Shown: positions 5,135 through 31,298 of the stretch, one piece after another | Layout: every line of letters starts with the position of its first letter | How positions within the stretch are numbered: the first letter of the stretch is position 1 | Source of the DNA: Nitriliruptoraceae bacterium | GTDB lineage: Bacteria; Actinomycetota; Nitriliruptoria; Nitriliruptorales; Nitriliruptoraceae | Direction of reading: 5' to 3' | Length of the DNA stretch: 35,496 bases | Assembly (NCBI GenBank): GCA_007136095.1 | Contig: SLHP01000120.1 | Coordinates: forward strand, 1-35,496 | Position numbers and translations under genes: made by a program | The notes under the pieces: model-generated | The model's database searches: none | What the model was told of the DNA's origin: nothing | Seen by the model: only the letters and a program-made list of their open reading frames with translations

Positions 5135-5385
5135 ATCCACGGCGGTTTCCCGCCGGGCACCCTCGTCAGCGCCGGAACCCGGCGCGAGGTGACGGAGCCT
5201 GCGAAAGTGTGCGATAACCGCACTCGATGGTCCGGACGGACGCCACCTCGGTCGCGATGGCTGCCACAGGGGGGTCGGGCTGTGGACAGGGGTGTGTGTA
5301 TGTGGATGACTACACCGGTGTTCTTCCACAGTTGTATCGACAGGTGTGGAACTGCGCTCCGACCCCGTTGCCCGACGATGCACAA

Positions 5386-5455: not shown

Positions 5456-5719
5456 CTAGATCGAGCGGGGCTCCTCCCAGAGAGCTTCGTCGAGCTCCTG
5501 GTCGCGCTTCTTCTTCAGCACCACCGCGGCGGCGGCACCGGCACCGGCGAGCAGCAGGGCGACCAGACCCTTCTTGCTGTTCTTGTCCTGCTCGGTCAAC
5601 TCGTCGATCTTGTCCGAGGTCGTGGACTGCAGTTCCTTGCCCTTCTTCTCGGCCTTCTTGCGCAGCTGGTCGGTCTTCTTCTCCAGCTTCGAGACCTTCT
5701 TCGACAGGCGCTTGGCCAT
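5456..5719 (-). CDS. Small protein with charged coiled coil and one membrane segment
   Basis: An 87-residue protein of unknown function. Residues 1 to about 45 are a Lys/Glu-rich, probably coiled-coil helix (MAKRLSKKVSKLEKK onward, including KIDELTEQDK). They are followed by one hydrophobic Ala/Leu-rich stretch (GLVALLLAGAGAAAAVVL), a KKKR stop-transfer patch and an acidic tail ending EEPRSI. The predicted topology is a single-pass membrane protein. ATG at 5719 is chosen over longer upstream readings because GAGGAG sits 6 bases ahead and the upstream sequence looks noncoding. The gene stands alone, diverges from the GH13 gene and ends before a strong hairpin. It resembles small YtxH-like envelope proteins only in general layout. 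Confidence 0.75.
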   Translation of the reverse strand: MAKRLSKKVSKLEKKTDQLRKKAEKKGKELQSTTSDKIDELTEQDKNSKKGLVALLLAGAGAAAAVVLKKKRDQELDEALWEEPRSI

Positions 5720-21124: not shown

Positions 21125-21500
21125 GTCGTTGCTCCTTACGGTTGTCCCCAGTTGTGATGAAGAAAGGTCTTCTTTACAGGTATCTCGTCATCGTCATCGG
21201 GGCTGTGGAAACGGTGGACAAGTGCCGTTCGTGCAGGTCAGCGATGGTCGGGGGTGGTGGACACGTTGTGCGTCCATAGCGTAGTTGTCCCGAGCCGATC
21301 GAACGACACCCGTGTGCTTCCACGGTTCGTCGTGGTCGTCCACGGGTTACCCACGTTCCGTCCACCGGTGTCGGTGACCCGCTGGGCCCGGTGGCTCCAC
21401 CGATGGTGCAGGCGCGTCCACGGATGCGGACCGGTTGTGCAGGGGTTGTCCACCGCTGGTCCACCGGTTGGTCCACCGTCGGGTGGGTGCACGACGGTGG
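21125..21500. other. dnaA-dnaN intergenic region, candidate origin segment
   Basis: This 376-base gap holds no gene. It contains a relatively AT-rich stretch (about 21151-21200, including GATGAAGAAAGGTCTTC) that could unwind. It also has many DnaA-box-like words: TTGTCCCCA (21142-21150), GGTGGACAA (21213-21221, minus), TTGTCCACC (21446-21454) and two TGGTCCACC copies. GC-rich actinobacterial origins usually have such degenerate boxes between dnaA and dnaN. Confidence 0.6.
21446..21477 (+). promoter_or_regulatory. Phased DnaA-box-like array
   Basis: TTGTCCACC at 21446, TGGTCCACC at 21457 and TGGTCCACC at 21469 are regularly spaced by 11-12 bases, about one helical turn. The first differs from TTGTCCACA at one base. 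Confidence 0.5.
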
Positions 21501-23144
21501 TCACGGACGCCGCGCCCGGGTCTTGATGCGGTTGGTGAGCTCCTGGACCTGGTTGTAGATCGTGCGTCGTTCCTGCATCAGCCCGGCGATCTTGGACTTC
21601 GCGTGCATCACGGTGGTGTGGTCCCGCCCACCGAACGCCTTGCCGATGCGTGGCAGTGACAGCTCGGTGAGCTCCCGGGTGAGATACATCGCGATCTGAC
21701 GGGCGGTCACCAGTTGCCGGCTTCGCGACGGTGAGCAGAGGTCCTCGACGGTCAGGGAGAAGTACTCGGCGACCTCGTCCATGATGACCTGGACCGAGAC
21801 CTCCTGCTCCCGGTCGTCGGGGAACAGATCCTTGAGCACCGTCTCGGCCATCTGGCTGTCCGCTGCGGAACGCTGCAGGCTCGCGAACGCGGAGACACGG
21901 ATCAGCGCCCCCTCGAGTTCGCGGATATTCGACTGGACCTTGGAGGCGATCAGTTCCAGGACCTCGGGATCGACCCCCAACCGGTCGGTCTCACACTTCT
22001 TGCGCAGGATCGCGATCCGGGTCTCGAGGTCAGGAGGTTGGACGTCGGTCATCAGGCCCCACTCGAACCTGCTGCGCAGACGGTCCTCGAGCTGGGCGAT
22101 CTGCTTCGGGGGCCGGTCACTGGAGATGACGATCTGTTTCTCCGCGTTGTGCAACGCGTTGAACGTGTGGAAGAACTCCTCCTGGGTCCGTTCAGCGCGT
22201 TCGAGGAACTGGATGTCATCGATCAACAGCACGTCGACCTGTCGGTAGGTCTGCTGGAACGAGGTGATGCGGTCGTGGCGGATGCCGTTGATGAACTCGT
22301 TCGTGAACTGTTCGGTCGTGACGTACCTGACCGCCAGGCGCGGGTAGAGGCTGCGCACGTAGTGACCGATGGCGTGCAGGAGGTGGGTCTTGCCGAGGCC
22401 GGCTCCCCCGTAGATGAACAGGGGGTTGTAGGACTTGGCCGGAGCCTCGGCGACGGCAGTTGCAGCCGCGTGGGCGAAGCGGTTGGAGGACCCGATGACG
22501 AAATCGTCGAACATGTACTTCGGATTGAGTTGCGTATCGGTCGTTGCGTGCGTCTCCGGCCGGCGGGGTTGCGGCAGATCAACCGTTGGTCCAGACGGGC
22601 GGCCAGGTGCCTGCAGTTCGCGATCGTCGGTGTTGCTGTAGCGCGTCCAATCCTGCAGCCGGTCCGCGGGCTGGTCAGGGGGCGGTGCATCCGCAGGCTG
22701 ATCCGTCGGCTGCTCTGAGACGCGGGCCGCGGTCTGTCCGTTGGTGGCTGGCGCGGTCGGTCGAGGCTCCTGCTGCCCCGGATCGACGTCCGAGCGACGT
22801 CGACCGCTGCCCGGGGCGGAGCCGGTCGAGGGGTCGGATCGATCGGTGTGCTCTGAGCCCGGCGGGTCGAGCGGTTCCGGGCGGGGTTGCACCGTGATGA
22901 CCACGGTGAGTGGCCGACCGGCGGTGGCCGACAGAGCATCGCGGATGCGATCGCCGCAACGGGTGTCCAACCATTCACGTGCGAACGCATGGGGAGTCGC
23001 GAGCACGACGGTGTCATCGCTGAAGCCAACGGGCTGCGTGGCACGCAGCCACTGGCGCTGCGTGGGCGAACCCACGGTCGTCAGGACGCGTTCGAGGCTG
23101 GCGTGCCAGAGTTGTCCGAGGTCCAACGTCGCTGCTGCGGTCAC
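21501..23144 (-). CDS. dnaA: Chromosomal replication initiator protein DnaA
   Basis: A 547-residue initiator. Domain I is at the N-terminus ([21 protein letters not shown]). A long Pro/Asp-rich linker (domain II) runs to about residue 195. The AAA+ domain has Walker [16 protein letters not shown] (near residue 243) and Walker B LLIDDIQF. The DNA-binding domain carries the signature [33 protein letters not shown], cited here by its [11 protein letters not shown] core. GTG at 23144 has CAGGAG 5 bases upstream. The leader carries a perfect hairpin at 23176-23197 and DnaA-box-like words at 23252-23283, so autoregulation is likely. dnaN lies downstream and rpmH diverges. Confidence 0.98.
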
Positions 23145-25713: not shown

Positions 25714-26439
25714 ATGACCCGTCGTACCCAGGCAACCGGCCCGAACCTGACTGAAGCGCTCCGCGCAGGGGTCGCAGATCTCGCCGGCTGTGACCTCGAG
25801 AAGGTCGAACTCAGCCTGCAGGCACCCGGGGTCGATGATCTCACGGGTTCGTTCACCCTCGAGCTGGATGTTTCCCCGCCGGCCGTCACGGAGGCCCCGG
25901 TAGAGGATGACGCGCCCGTCGCGCGGTCAGAGCGCGACGGGCGTGACGACCAGGAGGTCTCGTCGGACGAGGTCACGCCGGCAGAGCTCGACGAGGAAGC
26001 TGAGGCCGCAGCGGACTTCCTGGAGGGACTGCTGGATGCCCTCGACCTCCCGGGAGATCTGCGCATCCGCGTGAAGGACCAGCATGCCGAGGTGGAGATC
26101 GCGGAGGTCGGCAGTGGTGCGTTGATCGGTCGTCGGGGGCAGACCTTGGAAGCGATCCAGGAACTCGTCCGTTGTGCGATGCAGCGGCAGTTCGAACGGC
26201 GTTCACGCGTGCAGATCGACGTCGAGGGGTACCGCGCACGGCGGCTCGAGAAGCTGCTGGAGAAGGCCGAAGAGGCGATCGACGCCGCGCTCGAGACCGG
26301 TGAGTCGCAGCGGCTCGAACCGATGGACGTCTTCGAGCGCAAGGCGGTGCACCACCTGGTCGCCGAGACCGACGGTCTCATCAGCCGGAGCCAGGGCCGC
26401 GAGCCTGGTCGGCGCATCGTGATCGAGCGAGAAGACTGA
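25714..26439 (+). CDS. jag: KH-R3H RNA-binding protein (Jag/KhpB/EloR)
   Basis: A 241-residue cytoplasmic RNA-binding protein. It has an N-terminal region, an acidic linker (SSDEVTPAELDEEAEAAADF), a KH-II domain with GALIGRRGQTLEAIQ (near residues 132-146), and an R3H domain ending FERKAVHHLVAETDG...GREPGRRIVI. KhpB with KhpA acts as an RNA chaperone and influences cell elongation in Gram-positives; here the function is inferred from family and linkage to yidC. ATG at 25714 has AAAGG 8 bases upstream. A hairpin about 100 bases after the stop probably ends the operon. Confidence 0.94.
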   Translation: MTRRTQATGPNLTEALRAGVADLAGCDLEKVELSLQAPGVDDLTGSFTLELDVSPPAVTEAPVEDDAPVARSERDGRDDQEVSSDEVTPAELDEEAEAAADFLEGLLDALDLPGDLRIRVKDQHAEVEIAEVGSGALIGRRGQTLEAIQELVRCAMQRQFERRSRVQIDVEGYRARRLEKLLEKAEEAIDAALETGESQRLEPMDVFERKAVHHLVAETDGLISRSQGREPGRRIVIERED

Positions 26440-26484
26440 TCGGGTCACGACGACGGGCCGCGGCAGGTACCGGAGCCCGTCAGC

Positions 26485-26508
26485 GTCCGGTTCCACGTGG
26501 AACCGGAC
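26485..26508. other. parS site 1, inside a 24-bp perfect palindrome
   Basis: GTTCCACGTGGAAC at 26490-26503 is the ParB-binding palindrome. Its flanks are also symmetric, giving a perfect 24-bp palindrome at 26485-26508. It lies 50 bases after the jag stop. Confidence 0.85.
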
Positions 26509-26535
26509 GACGGGGCGATGGGTTCGATCCTGCGA

Positions 26536-26559
26536 GCGTTGGAGTCAGGGCTCCAACGC
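26536..26559 (+). terminator. Probable terminator of the rpmH-jag operon
   Basis: GCGTTGGAG (26536-26544) and CTCCAACGC (26551-26559) pair perfectly around the loop TCAGGG, 97 bases after the jag stop. There is no T-tract. Confidence 0.6.
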
Positions 26560-26887
26560 AAGGCCTGATGCCCGAAAACGCCGCACAGCGCGACCTGATG
26601 CGTTTCCGCTGTTCAGTACTCGTCGCTACCGTGTTCGGCCGGCCCACGGATTCGACGCGATCGCTCGACGCCCTTTGGGCTGACCGGTCGTGTTGCGTCG
26701 GAAGCCAGAGACCGTCGGTGAGCTAGCTCGTCCGGCTGCTGACCGCCCGGACAGGCTGACCGGGGTGGCACCGATGTGATCGGTCTCTGCGGGGTGCGCG
26801 ACGCCCGGGGCGGGGCATGCCACGGTCACCTCCCTGCAGCCCAAGGGTCACGCCGTCTCATCCTTCGGGCCGACTGGCGGTGAAGGA

Positions 26888-26906
26888 GGTCCTCGATCCG
26901 AGGACC
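26888..26906. other. Perfect short-loop hairpin
   Basis: GGTCCTCG (26888-26895) and CGAGGACC (26899-26906) pair over 8 bp with a 3-base loop, 33 bases before a perfect DnaA box. Confidence 0.45.
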
Positions 26907-26938
26907 AGGCGACGCGCGGGCGCAGGCGTATGCAAGGG

Positions 26939-26947
26939 TTATCCACA
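26939..26947 (+). promoter_or_regulatory. Perfect DnaA box TTATCCACA
   Basis: It is an exact match to the classical DnaA box. CGTGGATCGTGGACACC directly after it adds two partial boxes on the other strand. Confidence 0.7.
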
Positions 26948-27075
26948 GACCGTGGATCGTGGACACCCGCGTCACGGCGCTGGCATCGCGTCCCTGGCAC
27001 CGTGGCGACATCGTGCGCAGCGACCGTCGGTGCTCCTGGATAGGGCTTGGGGCCTGTGGCGGCCCTGGGCGGAGA

Positions 27076-27095
27076 TACGGCGATATAGTGCCGTA
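27076..27095. other. Hairpin with an AT-rich loop
   Basis: TACGGC (27076-27081) and GCCGTA (27090-27095) flank GATATAGT. The loop contains TATAGT, a -10-like hexamer, but no -35 partner was recognised. AGGAGG follows shortly but no start codon is suitably spaced. Confidence 0.35.
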
Positions 27096-27223
27096 GGAGG
27101 CCATCCGCGAGCGCGGTAGGACCGCGGGGACGGTACGGATCGCTCGGCGTCGGGCGCAGCGGGCAGACGGTCACCGGTAGATGGACCATGTCTGTGGTCG
27201 AGATCAGGGGAACGTGCCGTCGT

Positions 27224-27237
27224 GTTCCACGTGGAAC
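27224..27237. other. parS site 2
   Basis: An exact GTTCCACGTGGAAC palindrome, 20 bases before a perfect DnaA box. Confidence 0.85.
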
Positions 27238-27256
27238 CCTCGAGGTTCGCCGGGAG

Positions 27257-27265
27257 TTATCCACA
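27257..27265 (+). promoter_or_regulatory. Perfect DnaA box TTATCCACA with weak neighbours
   Basis: An exact DnaA box. CTATCCCCA on the minus strand (27273-27281) and CTTTCCACA (27301-27309) are two-mismatch neighbours within 55 bases. Confidence 0.7.
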
Positions 27266-27379
27266 GGCAACCTGGGGATAGCTTCCACTGTTTGGGGCGA
27301 CTTTCCACAAGGGGCAGGCAGTACCGCTGTCCGTGTGGTGCTCGCACGGCCATGCCCCCAGACCGCGCTGCACACCGAA

Positions 27380-27538
27380 GTGGCCGCGCCAGTAGGTGGC
27401 CCGGCTCGCGGTGCCCAGGCGGCGCCTCGCTGCGTTGCGCCTCGGTCACATGCCTTCCAGGCATGCTCCCTCGGCCCGCCTTGCGATGCATCCACCTGGA
27501 CGCCGCTCCCTGTTCGAGCCACTTAGTGGCGCGGCCAC
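27380..27538. repeat. 159-bp imperfect palindrome (large potential stem-loop or cruciform)
   Basis: The left arm 27380-27403 matches the reverse complement of the right arm 27515-27538 at 21 of 24 positions, with a perfect 12-bp outer core (GTGGCCGCGCCA / TGGCGCGGCCAC). A second block pairs 27408-27422 with 27492-27506 at 12 of 15. The centre is a perfect 6-bp hairpin CATGCC-TTCCA-GGCATG (27449-27465). All three share nearly the same centre (27457-27459). It lies between parS 2 and parS 3. Function unknown. Confidence 0.7.
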
Positions 27539-27730
27539 GAAGTGGCGCCGTCGCACGCAGGAACGTCGGGGTGTGCTTCGATCCGCAACTTCTTGTGATG
27601 GATCGGTCGGGGAGGCGAAAGTTAACGTCTCTGCCTCGGTCCAGTGCGCGGCGGACGGGCTCGATCCCGGGGGCGTTGCCGCCACCGAGGACCACACCTC
27701 GCGGCGGGTAGCCGCTTGTGCTCCCGGGTG

Positions 27731-27768
27731 TTGTGCCTCGTGAGGGCCGTTGTGCCTCGTGAGGACCG
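27731..27768. repeat. 19-bp tandem duplication
   Basis: TTGTGCCTCGTGAGGGCCG (27731-27749) is repeated at 27750-27768 with one change (GGG to GGA). Each unit contains CCTCGTGAGG, a small inverted repeat. It sits 10 bases before parS 3. Confidence 0.8.
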
Positions 27769-27778
27769 ATGCGCCACC

Positions 27779-27792
27779 GTTCCACGTGGAAC
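27779..27792. other. parS site 3
   Basis: An exact GTTCCACGTGGAAC palindrome, 82 bases from site 4. Both are followed by AT(C/G)CC. A 6-bp hairpin TCTGGA-AGCG-TCCAGA lies between them (27815-27830). Confidence 0.85.
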
Positions 27793-27860
27793 ATCCCAAG
27801 GGGCTGGCCCTGGATCTGGAAGCGTCCAGACAGGACGGCTCTGGCCCCGCCATGGTCCAC

Positions 27861-27874
27861 GTTCCACGTGGAAC
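27861..27874. other. parS site 4
   Basis: An exact GTTCCACGTGGAAC palindrome, preceded by GGTCCAC. Confidence 0.85.
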
Positions 27875-28336
27875 ATGCCGGCGGGTTCGCCATCTGTATC
27901 CTGATGAACCGTTCGTTCGCTCCAGGGCCACGGTCCTCGCGAGTAGGCGAGCGGGTGGGTGTCTCCCGGAGGGTCGGAGGGTGCCGGGTCGGTGGCCGGG
28001 GTGCAGTGAGCTCCTGGCGTACGATAGGGTCCCTGGCTCTGGATGTCGAGAGCCACCTAGACGATCGTTGGACGTCTGGTTGGGGTGTGGCGCGGTGCAA
28101 CGGGACCACCTTCCGCAGTTCGCGGGCTCGTGGTTCGACCGGGGTGATCAGACGGTCGCCGGACGCGTGTTGTGGAGACCGTGGGAACCGTGATCGGTTT
28201 CGGCTGGGGCAGGGACGGTCCGGCGACACTGACGTTGCTGAGGCCAGGCGGCGTGATAGTTGTGGACGCAATCGGTGGTTGACTCGCGATGCCTCGTTGC
28301 ATCGTCGCCACGGTCCAGTGCGTCGGTGGCTGATGT

Positions 28337-28354
28337 GTGTTCCACGTGGAACAC
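28337..28354. other. parS site 5, 18-bp perfect palindrome, just upstream of rsmG
   Basis: GTGTTCCACGTGGAACAC is perfectly symmetric, with core 28339-28352. It lies 34 bases before the rsmG start, so ParB occupancy or spreading could influence rsmG-parA-parB transcription. Confidence 0.85.
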
Positions 28355-28388
28355 CACGGGACGTGGACGGTGGGGCTAGGATGCCTTG

Positions 28389-29012
28389 ATGACCGCATCT
28401 GAGGCCGCAGGATCGTTGGAGGCAGCGCTGGACCAGTTCGCCGAGCTGGTCCGCTCGTCGCCGCACAACCTCGTCTCGTCGCGGGCGCGGGATGAACTCA
28501 AGGGGCGACACATCCCCGAATGTCTCGCATTCGCGGAGTTACTGCCCCGGACGGGTCGATTCCTCGATCTGGGGAGCGGGGGAGGCTTCCCGGGGATCGT
28601 CGTCGCCCTCCACGGACCGGAGCGCACGGTGCATCTCATGGATGCGACCCGCAAGAAGACGGCGTTCCTGCGCCACGCCGCGGCGACGCTCGGTATCGAC
28701 GTCGAGGTCCACACGGGCCGTGCCGAGGAACTCGGGCGTGGTGAACTCGGCAGGACGTTCGATGTGGTGACGGCCCGAGCCGTCGCCCCCTTGCGCATGC
28801 TCGTCGCCTGGGCCAGCCCGTTCCTCCGACCACGGGGTGACCTGTACGCGATCAAGGGTGAGCGCTGGCTGGCCGAACTGCAGGAGGCTGCCCCCAACCT
28901 CAAGCGGTGGGGACTGCAGGTGCACGCAACGCCAGCCAGTGATGCACGTCTCGGTCCAAGGTCGGGCAACCCGCACGCACCACGGGTTGTTATGCTCCGA
29001 CGGGCGTCATGA
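28389..29012 (+). CDS. rsmG: 16S rRNA (guanine-N7) methyltransferase RsmG (GidB)
   Basis: A 207-residue SAM-dependent methyltransferase that modifies G527 (E. coli numbering) of 16S rRNA. The SAM-binding loop is FLDLGSGGGFPGIVVAL, followed by VHLMDATRKKTAFLRHAA and TARAVAPLRMLVAWASPFL, all typical. ATG at 28389 has AGGA ending 7 bases upstream; a TTG three bases earlier is less likely. parA starts 55 bases after its stop, the conserved rsmG-parA-parB order. Confidence 0.95.
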   Translation: MTASEAAGSLEAALDQFAELVRSSPHNLVSSRARDELKGRHIPECLAFAELLPRTGRFLDLGSGGGFPGIVVALHGPERTVHLMDATRKKTAFLRHAAATLGIDVEVHTGRAEELGRGELGRTFDVVTARAVAPLRMLVAWASPFLRPRGDLYAIKGERWLAELQEAAPNLKRWGLQVHATPASDARLGPRSGNPHAPRVVMLRRAS

Positions 29013-29067
29013 GGTGTGGGTCCGGTGCCTGACCACCACGCCCCCTGCACATGCGGATGGAGACACC

Positions 29068-30108
29068 GTGAGCGATCTCAGCCGGGATGACCGGCTGCCG
29101 GCAGATGCTCCGGTTCACCGTGACCTCCAGGAGGCGGTATCGAACATACGTTCGAGTACCGATCCAGCCAGTGTCACGACCGACGATGTCGACGCCGCAC
29201 GTGCGACCGTCGTGTGTATCGCCAACCAGAAGGGCGGGGTCGGCAAGACCACGACCACCGTGTCGCTCGCGGCCGCCATCGCGGCGCTGGGAGCCCGTGT
29301 CCTCCTGGTTGATCTCGATCCCCAGGGCAACGCGACGACCGGCTTCGGGCTGCGGGCGGATGAGGACGACCCCAGCACCTACGGCGTGTTGGTCGACTCG
29401 CTGCCGATCGTCGAAGCCGCCGTGCCCAGTGGGATCGACGGCCTCGATGTCGTGCGCTCATCGCTCGACCTCGCCGGGGCCGAGGTCGAGCTCGTCCCCG
29501 CGTTCTCGCGTGAACTTCGGCTGCAGAAGGCGGTGGAGGCCGTCCGGTCGAGTTACGACGTCATCTTCGTGGATTGCCCGCCGTCGCTCGGCCTGCTGAC
29601 CATCAACGCCCTGGTCGCGGCCGATCAGATCATCGTGCCGATCCAGTGCGAGTACTACGCGTTGGAGGGGCTCGGCCAGCTCATGCGTACCGTGCAACTG
29701 GTAGGCGACAGCCTCAACCGCAAGCTCGAGCTCGGTGGTGTGGTCCTGACCATGTACGACGGGCGCACCAACCTGGCGCAGCAGGTGGTCGATGAGGTCC
29801 GCGCCTACTTCGGGAAGCGCGCCTACGCCACCGTCATCCCGCGCACCGTCCGTCTCTCCGAGGCGCCGAGCTTCGGGCAGCCCATCACGGTCTTCGACCC
29901 GCAGAGCCGCGGTTCAAGGGCCTATCAGCGGCTCGCGCGGGAGGTCGCCGAGCGGTTGGCCCTGCCCGTGGACATCCCGGCGGAGAACCCGCTGGACCGC
30001 CTGTTGTCGGGTGGTGATCCGCTCCCGGAGTACGAACCGACCGATCCGACGGCGCCGGTGGTGCCGCCGGATGCAGGTCTCCCCGTGGATGAGGAGGAGC
30101 ACACGTGA
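29068..30108 (+). CDS. parA: Chromosome partitioning ATPase ParA (Soj)
   Basis: A 346-residue deviant-Walker ATPase that moves ParB-parS complexes over the nucleoid. IANQKGGVGKTTTTV is the deviant Walker A (near residue 54), LLVDLDPQGNATTGFG is Walker A', and VIFVDCPPSLGLLTINAL is Walker B. An N-terminal extension of about 45 residues (DLSRDDRLPADAPVHRD) precedes the ATPase fold, and the C-terminus is acidic and Pro-rich. GTG at 29068 has GGAGA 5 bases upstream; the open frame continues into rsmG but that reading is rejected. The stop overlaps the parB start by 4 bases. Confidence 0.97.
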   Translation: MSDLSRDDRLPADAPVHRDLQEAVSNIRSSTDPASVTTDDVDAARATVVCIANQKGGVGKTTTTVSLAAAIAALGARVLLVDLDPQGNATTGFGLRADEDDPSTYGVLVDSLPIVEAAVPSGIDGLDVVRSSLDLAGAEVELVPAFSRELRLQKAVEAVRSSYDVIFVDCPPSLGLLTINALVAADQIIVPIQCEYYALEGLGQLMRTVQLVGDSLNRKLELGGVVLTMYDGRTNLAQQVVDEVRAYFGKRAYATVIPRTVRLSEAPSFGQPITVFDPQSRGSRAYQRLAREVAERLALPVDIPAENPLDRLLSGGDPLPEYEPTDPTAPVVPPDAGLPVDEEEHT

Positions 30109-31298
30109 CTCGTCGCAGCGGACTCGGTCGTGGGTTGGCCGCGCTGATCCCACCCAGCGATCCCAGCCGGGATCGAACGGATGATGAGCCGCCGGTCGAT
30201 CCTGCGGACGATGCCGCAGACGGCGATGCGGTGCCACCGGATCAGCCGCTGGACGGCAGCGACCAACCAGGTGACGACGCTGGCAGCGGTCACCATGATC
30301 CTTCAGCCGGAGGACCGCCTCCGCCTCCGCCTCCCGCTCCGTCGACGGTCGATCGACTGGCAGGGCAGGACGCGTCGGTCGGATATCCGACAGCCGATGT
30401 ACCGGCGGTGACATCCGCTGCACCCAGTGTCGCACCGCGTGCCACGTTGGCCGAGGTGTCCCCGTCGGACATCGTTCCGAACCCGCGCCAACCGCGCGAG
30501 GTGTTCGACGAGGAGGAGATCGAGGGCCTGGCCGTATCTCTGCTGGATGTGGGCGTCCTGCAGCCACTCGTGGTCCGGCCGCTCGACGGTGGTCGTTACG
30601 AACTGGTGGCCGGGGAACGGCGTCTGCGTGCCGCCAAGGTCGCCGGTCTCGAGCTGATCCCGGTCGTGGTCCGCCACACCGAGGATGCCGATCTGCTCAA
30701 GGAAGCGTTGGTCGAGAACATCCACCGGGTGCAGCTCAACCCGCTGGAGGAAGCCGCCGCCTACCAGCAACTGTTGGAGGAGTTCGGCTTCACGCAGGAG
30801 GAACTCGCCAGTCGCATCGGCAAGTCACGGCCTGCGATCAGCAACTCCTTGCGGCTGCTCAGCCTGCCGACGGGGGTGCAGCGCCGGGTGGCGGCCAACG
30901 TGCTGTCCGCCGGTCACGCCAAGGCGCTGCTGGCGCTCCCGGACCCGGTCGCGCAGGAGCGGCTGGCGGAACGGGTCGTCGCGGAAGGGCTGTCGGTCCG
31001 CGCGGTGGAGGAATTCGTGCGCGTGAAGTTGCTGGACGAGTCGGGTGCCGGTGGCGGAGCTTCCGGCTCCTCGTCGGGGGGTGGGAAGCGACGCGTCGTC
31101 GCTCCGGGGTTGATCGACCTGCAGGACGATCTGTCCGATGCCCTGGAGTCACGGGTGCGCATCACCATGGGCGCTCGACGCGGCAAGCTCACCATCGAGT
31201 TCGCGTCGGTCGATGACCTCGAGCGGATCGTCGGTGTCATCGCTGGCGGCCTGGAGTCAGGGAGCGGCTCGATCACGGTGCCCAGCGACGAGTTGTAG
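30105..31298 (+). CDS. parB: Chromosome partitioning protein ParB (CTPase)
   Basis: A 397-residue DNA-sliding CTPase that loads at parS. The N-terminal SGLGRGLAALIP motif contacts ParA and is followed by a roughly 100-residue Asp/Pro-rich linker. The CTP-binding region has NPRQPREVFDEEEI, AGERRLRAAKVAGLELIPVVVR and LVENIHRVQLNPLEEA. The parS-recognising helix-turn-helix is TQEELASRIGKSRPAISNSL (near residue 229), and a C-terminal dimerisation domain follows a Gly/Ser-rich spacer. GTG at 30105 overlaps parA and has GAGGAGGAG upstream. Its five parS sites lie 1.7 to 3.6 kb upstream in the jag-rsmG gap. Confidence 0.97.
   Translation: MTRRSGLGRGLAALIPPSDPSRDRTDDEPPVDPADDAADGDAVPPDQPLDGSDQPGDDAGSGHHDPSAGGPPPPPPPAPSTVDRLAGQDASVGYPTADVPAVTSAAPSVAPRATLAEVSPSDIVPNPRQPREVFDEEEIEGLAVSLLDVGVLQPLVVRPLDGGRYELVAGERRLRAAKVAGLELIPVVVRHTEDADLLKEALVENIHRVQLNPLEEAAAYQQLLEEFGFTQEELASRIGKSRPAISNSLRLLSLPTGVQRRVAANVLSAGHAKALLALPDPVAQERLAERVVAEGLSVRAVEEFVRVKLLDESGAGGGASGSSSGGGKRRVVAPGLIDLQDDLSDALESRVRITMGARRGKLTIEFASVDDLERIVGVIAGGLESGSGSITVPSDEL

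Follow-up and report, generated by a model that had tools for sequence, protein, structure and literature searches.

The noncoding block between jag and rsmG (26440..28385) in this Nitriliruptoraceae genome is most probably the chromosome centromere and ParB loading zone, a reading to which we assign a probability of about 0.85 on the basis of sequence comparison. In this reading the block is a compact, gene-free parS array with its own rsmG–parA–parB genes nearby; it lacks coding signal, holds all parS sites found in the MAG, and its array is syntenic in relatives. As a centromere it is ordinary in kind, yet unusually compact and cleanly bounded.

The window, i.e. the whole stretch of 35,496 nucleotides that was analysed, is one whole contig (C69) of the MAG of an uncultured member of Nitriliruptoraceae; this MAG has 269 contigs and 3.06 Mb and is 92% complete. 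The gene order is recF–dnaN–dnaA on the minus strand, followed by rpmH–rnpA–yidC–jag, the block and rsmG–parA–parB. The block begins at the first base past the jag stop codon (26440) and ends at the start of rsmG, which is either TTG at 28386 or ATG at 28389. It is flanked by jag (khpB; 25714..26439, plus strand), which has R3H and KH domains, and by rsmG (gidB; 28389..29012, plus strand), which matches Pfam GidB. These are followed on the plus strand by parA (AAA_31), whose longest ORF spans 28837..30108, and by parB (30105..31298). The true start of parA is probably further in, because the ATPase domain starts at residue 124.

Five exact copies of the palindrome GTTCCACGTGGAAC lie in the block: parS 1 (26490..26503), parS 2 (27224..27237), parS 3 (27779..27792), parS 4 (27861..27874) and parS 5 (28339..28352). 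All five had been listed at these positions in a preliminary description of the sequence, and its account of a jag–rsmG gap of about 1.95 kb with five parS sites and two exact DnaA boxes is correct to the base. When up to two mismatches are allowed, shuffled sequences give 0.15 expected sites in the window against the five found, and the window has no further site at this threshold. Pattern searches of the 3.06-Mb MAG revealed no further copy of GTTCCACGTGGAAC with at most one mismatch, and the broader pattern GTTYCACGTGRAAC still gives a total of five; since the MAG is fragmented (269 contigs, 92% complete), extra copies of parS, or of the DnaA box TTATCCACA that was counted in the same way, could be missing from these numbers.

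The statement that the block holds no credible gene also stands. Pfam gave no match for the ten longest ORFs of the block, and GC content in its ORFs is flat across codon positions (0.59-0.72), whereas the genes flanking the block have 0.43-0.53 at codon position 2 and 0.76-0.85 at codon position 3. A hidden gene was rejected on the Pfam blank and the flat codon-position GC. For a known RNA, the comparison of the block with Rfam gave sub-threshold matches only and no family at threshold.

For comparison, the jag–rsmG gaps were cut from 40 relatives. The same-genus records are Nitriliruptoraceae by name (class Nitriliruptoria) and, from our reading of the isolate codes, presumably come from soda-lake sediment. 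Most gaps of the family and of its sister family measure 0.25–2.5 kb (one is 25 bp), and nearly all hold 1–6 parS. Some 25 genomes of the family have the array in synteny, as does the sister family. In the other families of Nitriliruptoria, most gaps are 20–130 bp long and the parS sites are found further downstream, around parA. Micromonosporaceae and other actinobacteria mostly have gaps of 20–300 bp with no parS, except for Dactylosporangium, where gaps of 1.7–4.7 kb contain two parS. Genome-wide searches within the family showed that nearly all parS of near-complete genomes fall in the jag–rsmG gap. For example, 6 of the 7 exact parS of a complete 5.6-Mb genome (G010) are in the gap, the seventh being about 3.7 kb past the rsmG start, and all three of a 4.0-Mb genome (G025) are there. 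Across the gaps compared, the parS array is thus seen as a conserved family feature. Some relatives have a small array of one or two parS, so five sites are not required. In our literature search, no paper was found that treats parS in combination with jag, rsmG and oriC.

The rest of the block is unconserved. In a masked comparison of all relatives' gaps with that of the window, no common sequence was found save a dispersed repeat of about 165 bp; only the parS sites, this repeat and two end positions of the array are kept. The end positions were evaluated on the 18 complete gaps with a length of 500 bp or more. On the rsmG side, 16 of the 18 have a parS that ends at most 90 bp from the start codon (3.8 expected, P≈5e-10), with this site standing 10–70 bp before rsmG. 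On the jag side a parS starts 45–65 bp after the stop codon in 6 of the 18 (0.95 expected, P≈2e-4); these P values are somewhat flattering, as the cut-offs were picked after the positions were known.

Both ends of the array in the window have further structure. Immediately 3' of jag there is a terminator-like hairpin (26452..26481, plus strand; fold z=-2.7), directly followed by parS 1, 50 bp past the jag stop. In relatives the parS on the jag side often directly adjoins the 3' foot of such a jag hairpin (L037, L039, L042, L043, L044 and L047). The hairpin is smaller in the window, and behind it stands parS 1, at the centre of a perfect palindrome of 26 bp (26484-26509) that folds as an 11-bp hairpin. 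At the other end, parS 5 is the promoter-proximal site upstream of rsmG–parA–parB, at the position kept in the 16 gaps. The motif TAGGAT (28377..28382, plus strand), 24 bp past parS 5 and 6 nt before the ATG at 28389, is a candidate -10 element for a leaderless rsmG transcript. In many relatives TAGnnT stands 6–10 nt upstream of the rsmG start codon, which is likely to mark a leaderless promoter of rsmG–parAB, and in several of them a parS is located at or just upstream of the expected -35. In P. aeruginosa, ParB represses genes behind a promoter-proximal parS (PMC7022226). At the present locus, parS 5 would probably let ParB damp the transcription of rsmG–parA–parB. Separately, we observed a decayed parS (GTTCCACGGGGAAC) in the gap of L040, about 85 bp before rsmG at the usual rsmG-proximal place; this gap is one of the two exceptions on the rsmG side.

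The ParB protein encoded beside the block retains the GERR motif, and at the Caulobacter-equivalent positions 173/179/184/201, hand-read from the alignment, it has R/S/S/G; the Noc lysines at 179 and 184 are missing. R173 and G201 are invariant in ParB, and the residues of Noc at these four positions are Q/K/K/R (PMC7383237). By these specificity residues, the window ParB is of the parS type and not a Noc. The array is about 5-7 kb from the dnaA–dnaN gap and adjoins rsmG–parA–parB. The earlier expectation of a parS cluster near oriC and beside parAB is therefore borne out, with true parS-type sites, a parS-type ParB and conservation in the family, and such a location points to a loading centre for ParB and probably for SMC. 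In the proposed mechanism, ParB would load at the five parS sites as CTP clamps and spread across the block and the flanking DNA, ParA would pull the ParB-loaded copies apart, and ParB would also recruit SMC.

Arrays of this kind are known from other bacteria. Pseudomonas aeruginosa has four oriC-proximal sites, parS1-4, and its ParB recognises the GTTCCAC half-site (PMC4368675, PMC7022226). Corynebacterium glutamicum resembles the window in having several perfect oriC-proximal parS in one cluster, nearly all of them intergenic, but its ten sites are spread across 35 kb, 73 kb from oriC (PMC7083940). In the window, by comparison, the five parS are within one 1.9-kb gene-free gap and the end sites are conserved in position. 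The parS1-4 cluster of P. aeruginosa is not known to be restricted to one noncoding gap. In a little-studied actinobacterial class, the centromere would thus be defined as a single gene-free gap with practically all chromosomal parS, which makes it a compact target for asking how few parS suffice and whether end-anchored parS control rsmG–parAB transcription. It is also a place to ask whether DnaA acts at a centromere outside Caulobacter, a part which is a lead only.

The origin itself is likely to be the dnaA–dnaN gap (21125..21500). A DnaA-box matrix trained on the relatives' gaps, with the window left out, detects 6 boxes in the 376 bp of this gap (16/kb; 0.2 expected). In the jag–rsmG gap it detects 2 in 1946 bp (1.8 expected), both being the TTATCCACA copies. 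Over the whole family, the dnaA–dnaN gap contains 150 GTCCAC against about 22 expected and 98 TCCACA against about 10 expected; TCCACA is likewise overrepresented between dnaA and rpmH, where 90 copies were counted. In the oriC region, the cumulative GC skew reaches a minimum at 20–21 kb, and a slightly lower minimum is found at about 11 kb. Since the dnaA–dnaN gap is dense in boxes and a skew minimum falls in this region, the jag–rsmG block is not an origin segment. An auxiliary origin in the block, which the preliminary description had considered, or an alternative one could draw on the two perfect boxes and two weak DnaA-like sites, CTATCCCCA (27273..27281, minus strand) and CTTTCCACA (27301..27309, plus strand). 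We regard it as very improbable, given the background box density, the skew minimum at 20-21 kb and the conserved oriC motifs still present in the dnaA–dnaN gap; the block also has no AT-rich unwinding element, its GC content being 0.65-0.71 in every 200-bp bin.

The two exact copies of TTATCCACA are where they had been reported, box 1 at 26939..26947 and box 2 at 27257..27265, both on the plus strand. Box 2 is indeed close to parS 2, with a spacing of 19 bp (27238-27256) rather than 20. These two copies are the only ones in the MAG, and the probability of both falling in the block if placed at random is about 4e-7 (for a MAG that is 92% complete); the number expected in the gap from shuffles is ~0.00. 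The MAG has 13 copies of the alternative box TTGTCCACA, which are spread across its contigs. With the only two TTATCCACA copies in the block and TTGTCCACA scattered, an accident of base composition is unlikely. TTATCCACA is rare in the whole family (0–7 per genome), and several relatives have one copy in the dnaA–rpmH or dnaA–dnaN gap. The window DnaA (21501..23144, minus strand; Pfam Bac_DnaA and Bac_DnaA_C) has a conserved box-binding domain, with a full domain IV that aligns with the domain-IV structures of E. coli and M. tuberculosis DnaA, which we take entries 1j1v and 3pvp to be. DnaA probably binds both boxes, given their agreement with the classical consensus and the conserved DNA-binding domain of the protein.

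On the other hand, the boxes are not kept in close relatives. No TTnTCCACA is found in the gap of same-genus L036 (complete, 4 parS), nor in that of same-genus L035 (1.72 kb to the contig end, 5 parS), and in the family as a whole the matrix finds about as many boxes in the jag–rsmG gap as chance would give. The preliminary description had named the absence of both boxes from close relatives with retained parS as refuting its reading, and within the genus this absence is what was observed. No fixed order of parS and DnaA boxes was found among the relatives' gaps. Most of the family lacks the boxes. The two TTATCCACA copies therefore appear as a lineage-specific addition outside the origin. They might be incidental, having arisen by drift in an unconstrained spacer, a reading to which we give somewhat less than even odds: the boxes are missing from the nearest relatives and the spacer diverges freely outside parS, but hardly any copy is expected in the gap, and chance is an improbable cause of the clustering seen in the genome.

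Genus g11, with reduced genomes of 1.1–1.7 Mb, also has DnaA boxes in the jag–rsmG gap of three species. The boxes of L057 (+,-,-) and L061 (+,-,-) have spacings of 14 and 20 bp, partly read by hand, and L059 has two boxes 20 bp apart; the DNA between the boxes differs among the three. A relocation of the origin into this gap in g11 was considered and rejected, because the dnaA–dnaN gap of g11, in which the matrix gives few matches, retains the conserved GCAGGTCAG and several GTCCACAG/TGTGG sites. The preliminary description had viewed the block as a compound centre where DnaA and ParB meet. The non-random placement of the boxes in the MAG agrees with this, but such a centre is not supported as a general feature, as L035 and L036 keep their parS without the boxes. 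In one form of this idea, DnaA at 26939 and 27257 would act on the ParB–parS complex, setting the timing of segregation in a Caulobacter-like manner, or would be displaced by spreading ParB. We consider it rather doubtful: the confinement of TTATCCACA to the block, the proximity of box 2 to parS 2, the independent phased boxes of g11 and the Caulobacter precedent speak for it, and the absence of the boxes from L036, L035 and most of the family and the near-chance matrix counts speak against it.

The precedent is that Caulobacter DnaA binds boxes in the parS region and makes segregation possible (Mera 2014, as summarised in the review PMC6399470), and that low-level DnaA can set off centromere movement without replication (PMC6399470, PMC6667618). 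Caulobacter crescentus is similar in that DnaA boxes and parS share one origin-proximal centromere, about 8 kb from ori there. It differs in that DnaA binding and its effect have been demonstrated, whereas the window is known from boxes alone, which are unconserved in the genus. At rctA/parS2 of Vibrio cholerae chromosome II, initiator and ParB sites also share one locus, but the initiator is RctB, not DnaA, and the chromosome is secondary. A lineage-specific role of DnaA is left room by the independent phased box cluster of g11 in the same gap. That DnaA would act directly at the parS centromere in some Nitriliruptoraceae, as a Caulobacter-like coupling with ParB that arose separately in Actinomycetota, once in the window species and once in g11, seems to us unlikely.

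Titration of DnaA had been mentioned as well. As a datA-like reservoir that is replicated early, the boxes would sequester DnaA soon after initiation, and two boxes of high-affinity type, 5-6 kb from oriC and rare elsewhere, would suit this role. Two boxes against six at oriC offer little capacity, TTGTCCACA is present in 13 dispersed copies and the two boxes are unconserved, and we judge this explanation quite improbable. The TTATCCACA pair merits a binding test and is not yet a mechanism.

The dispersed repeat inserted in the block (27378..27541) is MITE-like, and its termini GTGGCCGCGCCA...TGGCGCGGCCAC form an imperfect inverted repeat. Copies are also found at L035 10643-10927 and L040 10863-11039, and copies from genomes of the same genus, of the same family and of other families are 75-93% identical. 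In G001, contigs break off within the repeat, which suggests a high copy number. Just before parS 3, a tandem pair of almost identical 20-bp units (GTTGTGCCTCGTGAGGrCC) was spotted by eye at 27729-27770. Elsewhere in the window, three DnaA-like sites (CTGTCCACA, minus strand; TCATCCACA, minus strand; TCTTCCACA, plus strand) are within 50 bp at 5281-5330, about 250 bp upstream of a large plus-strand ORF at 5574.
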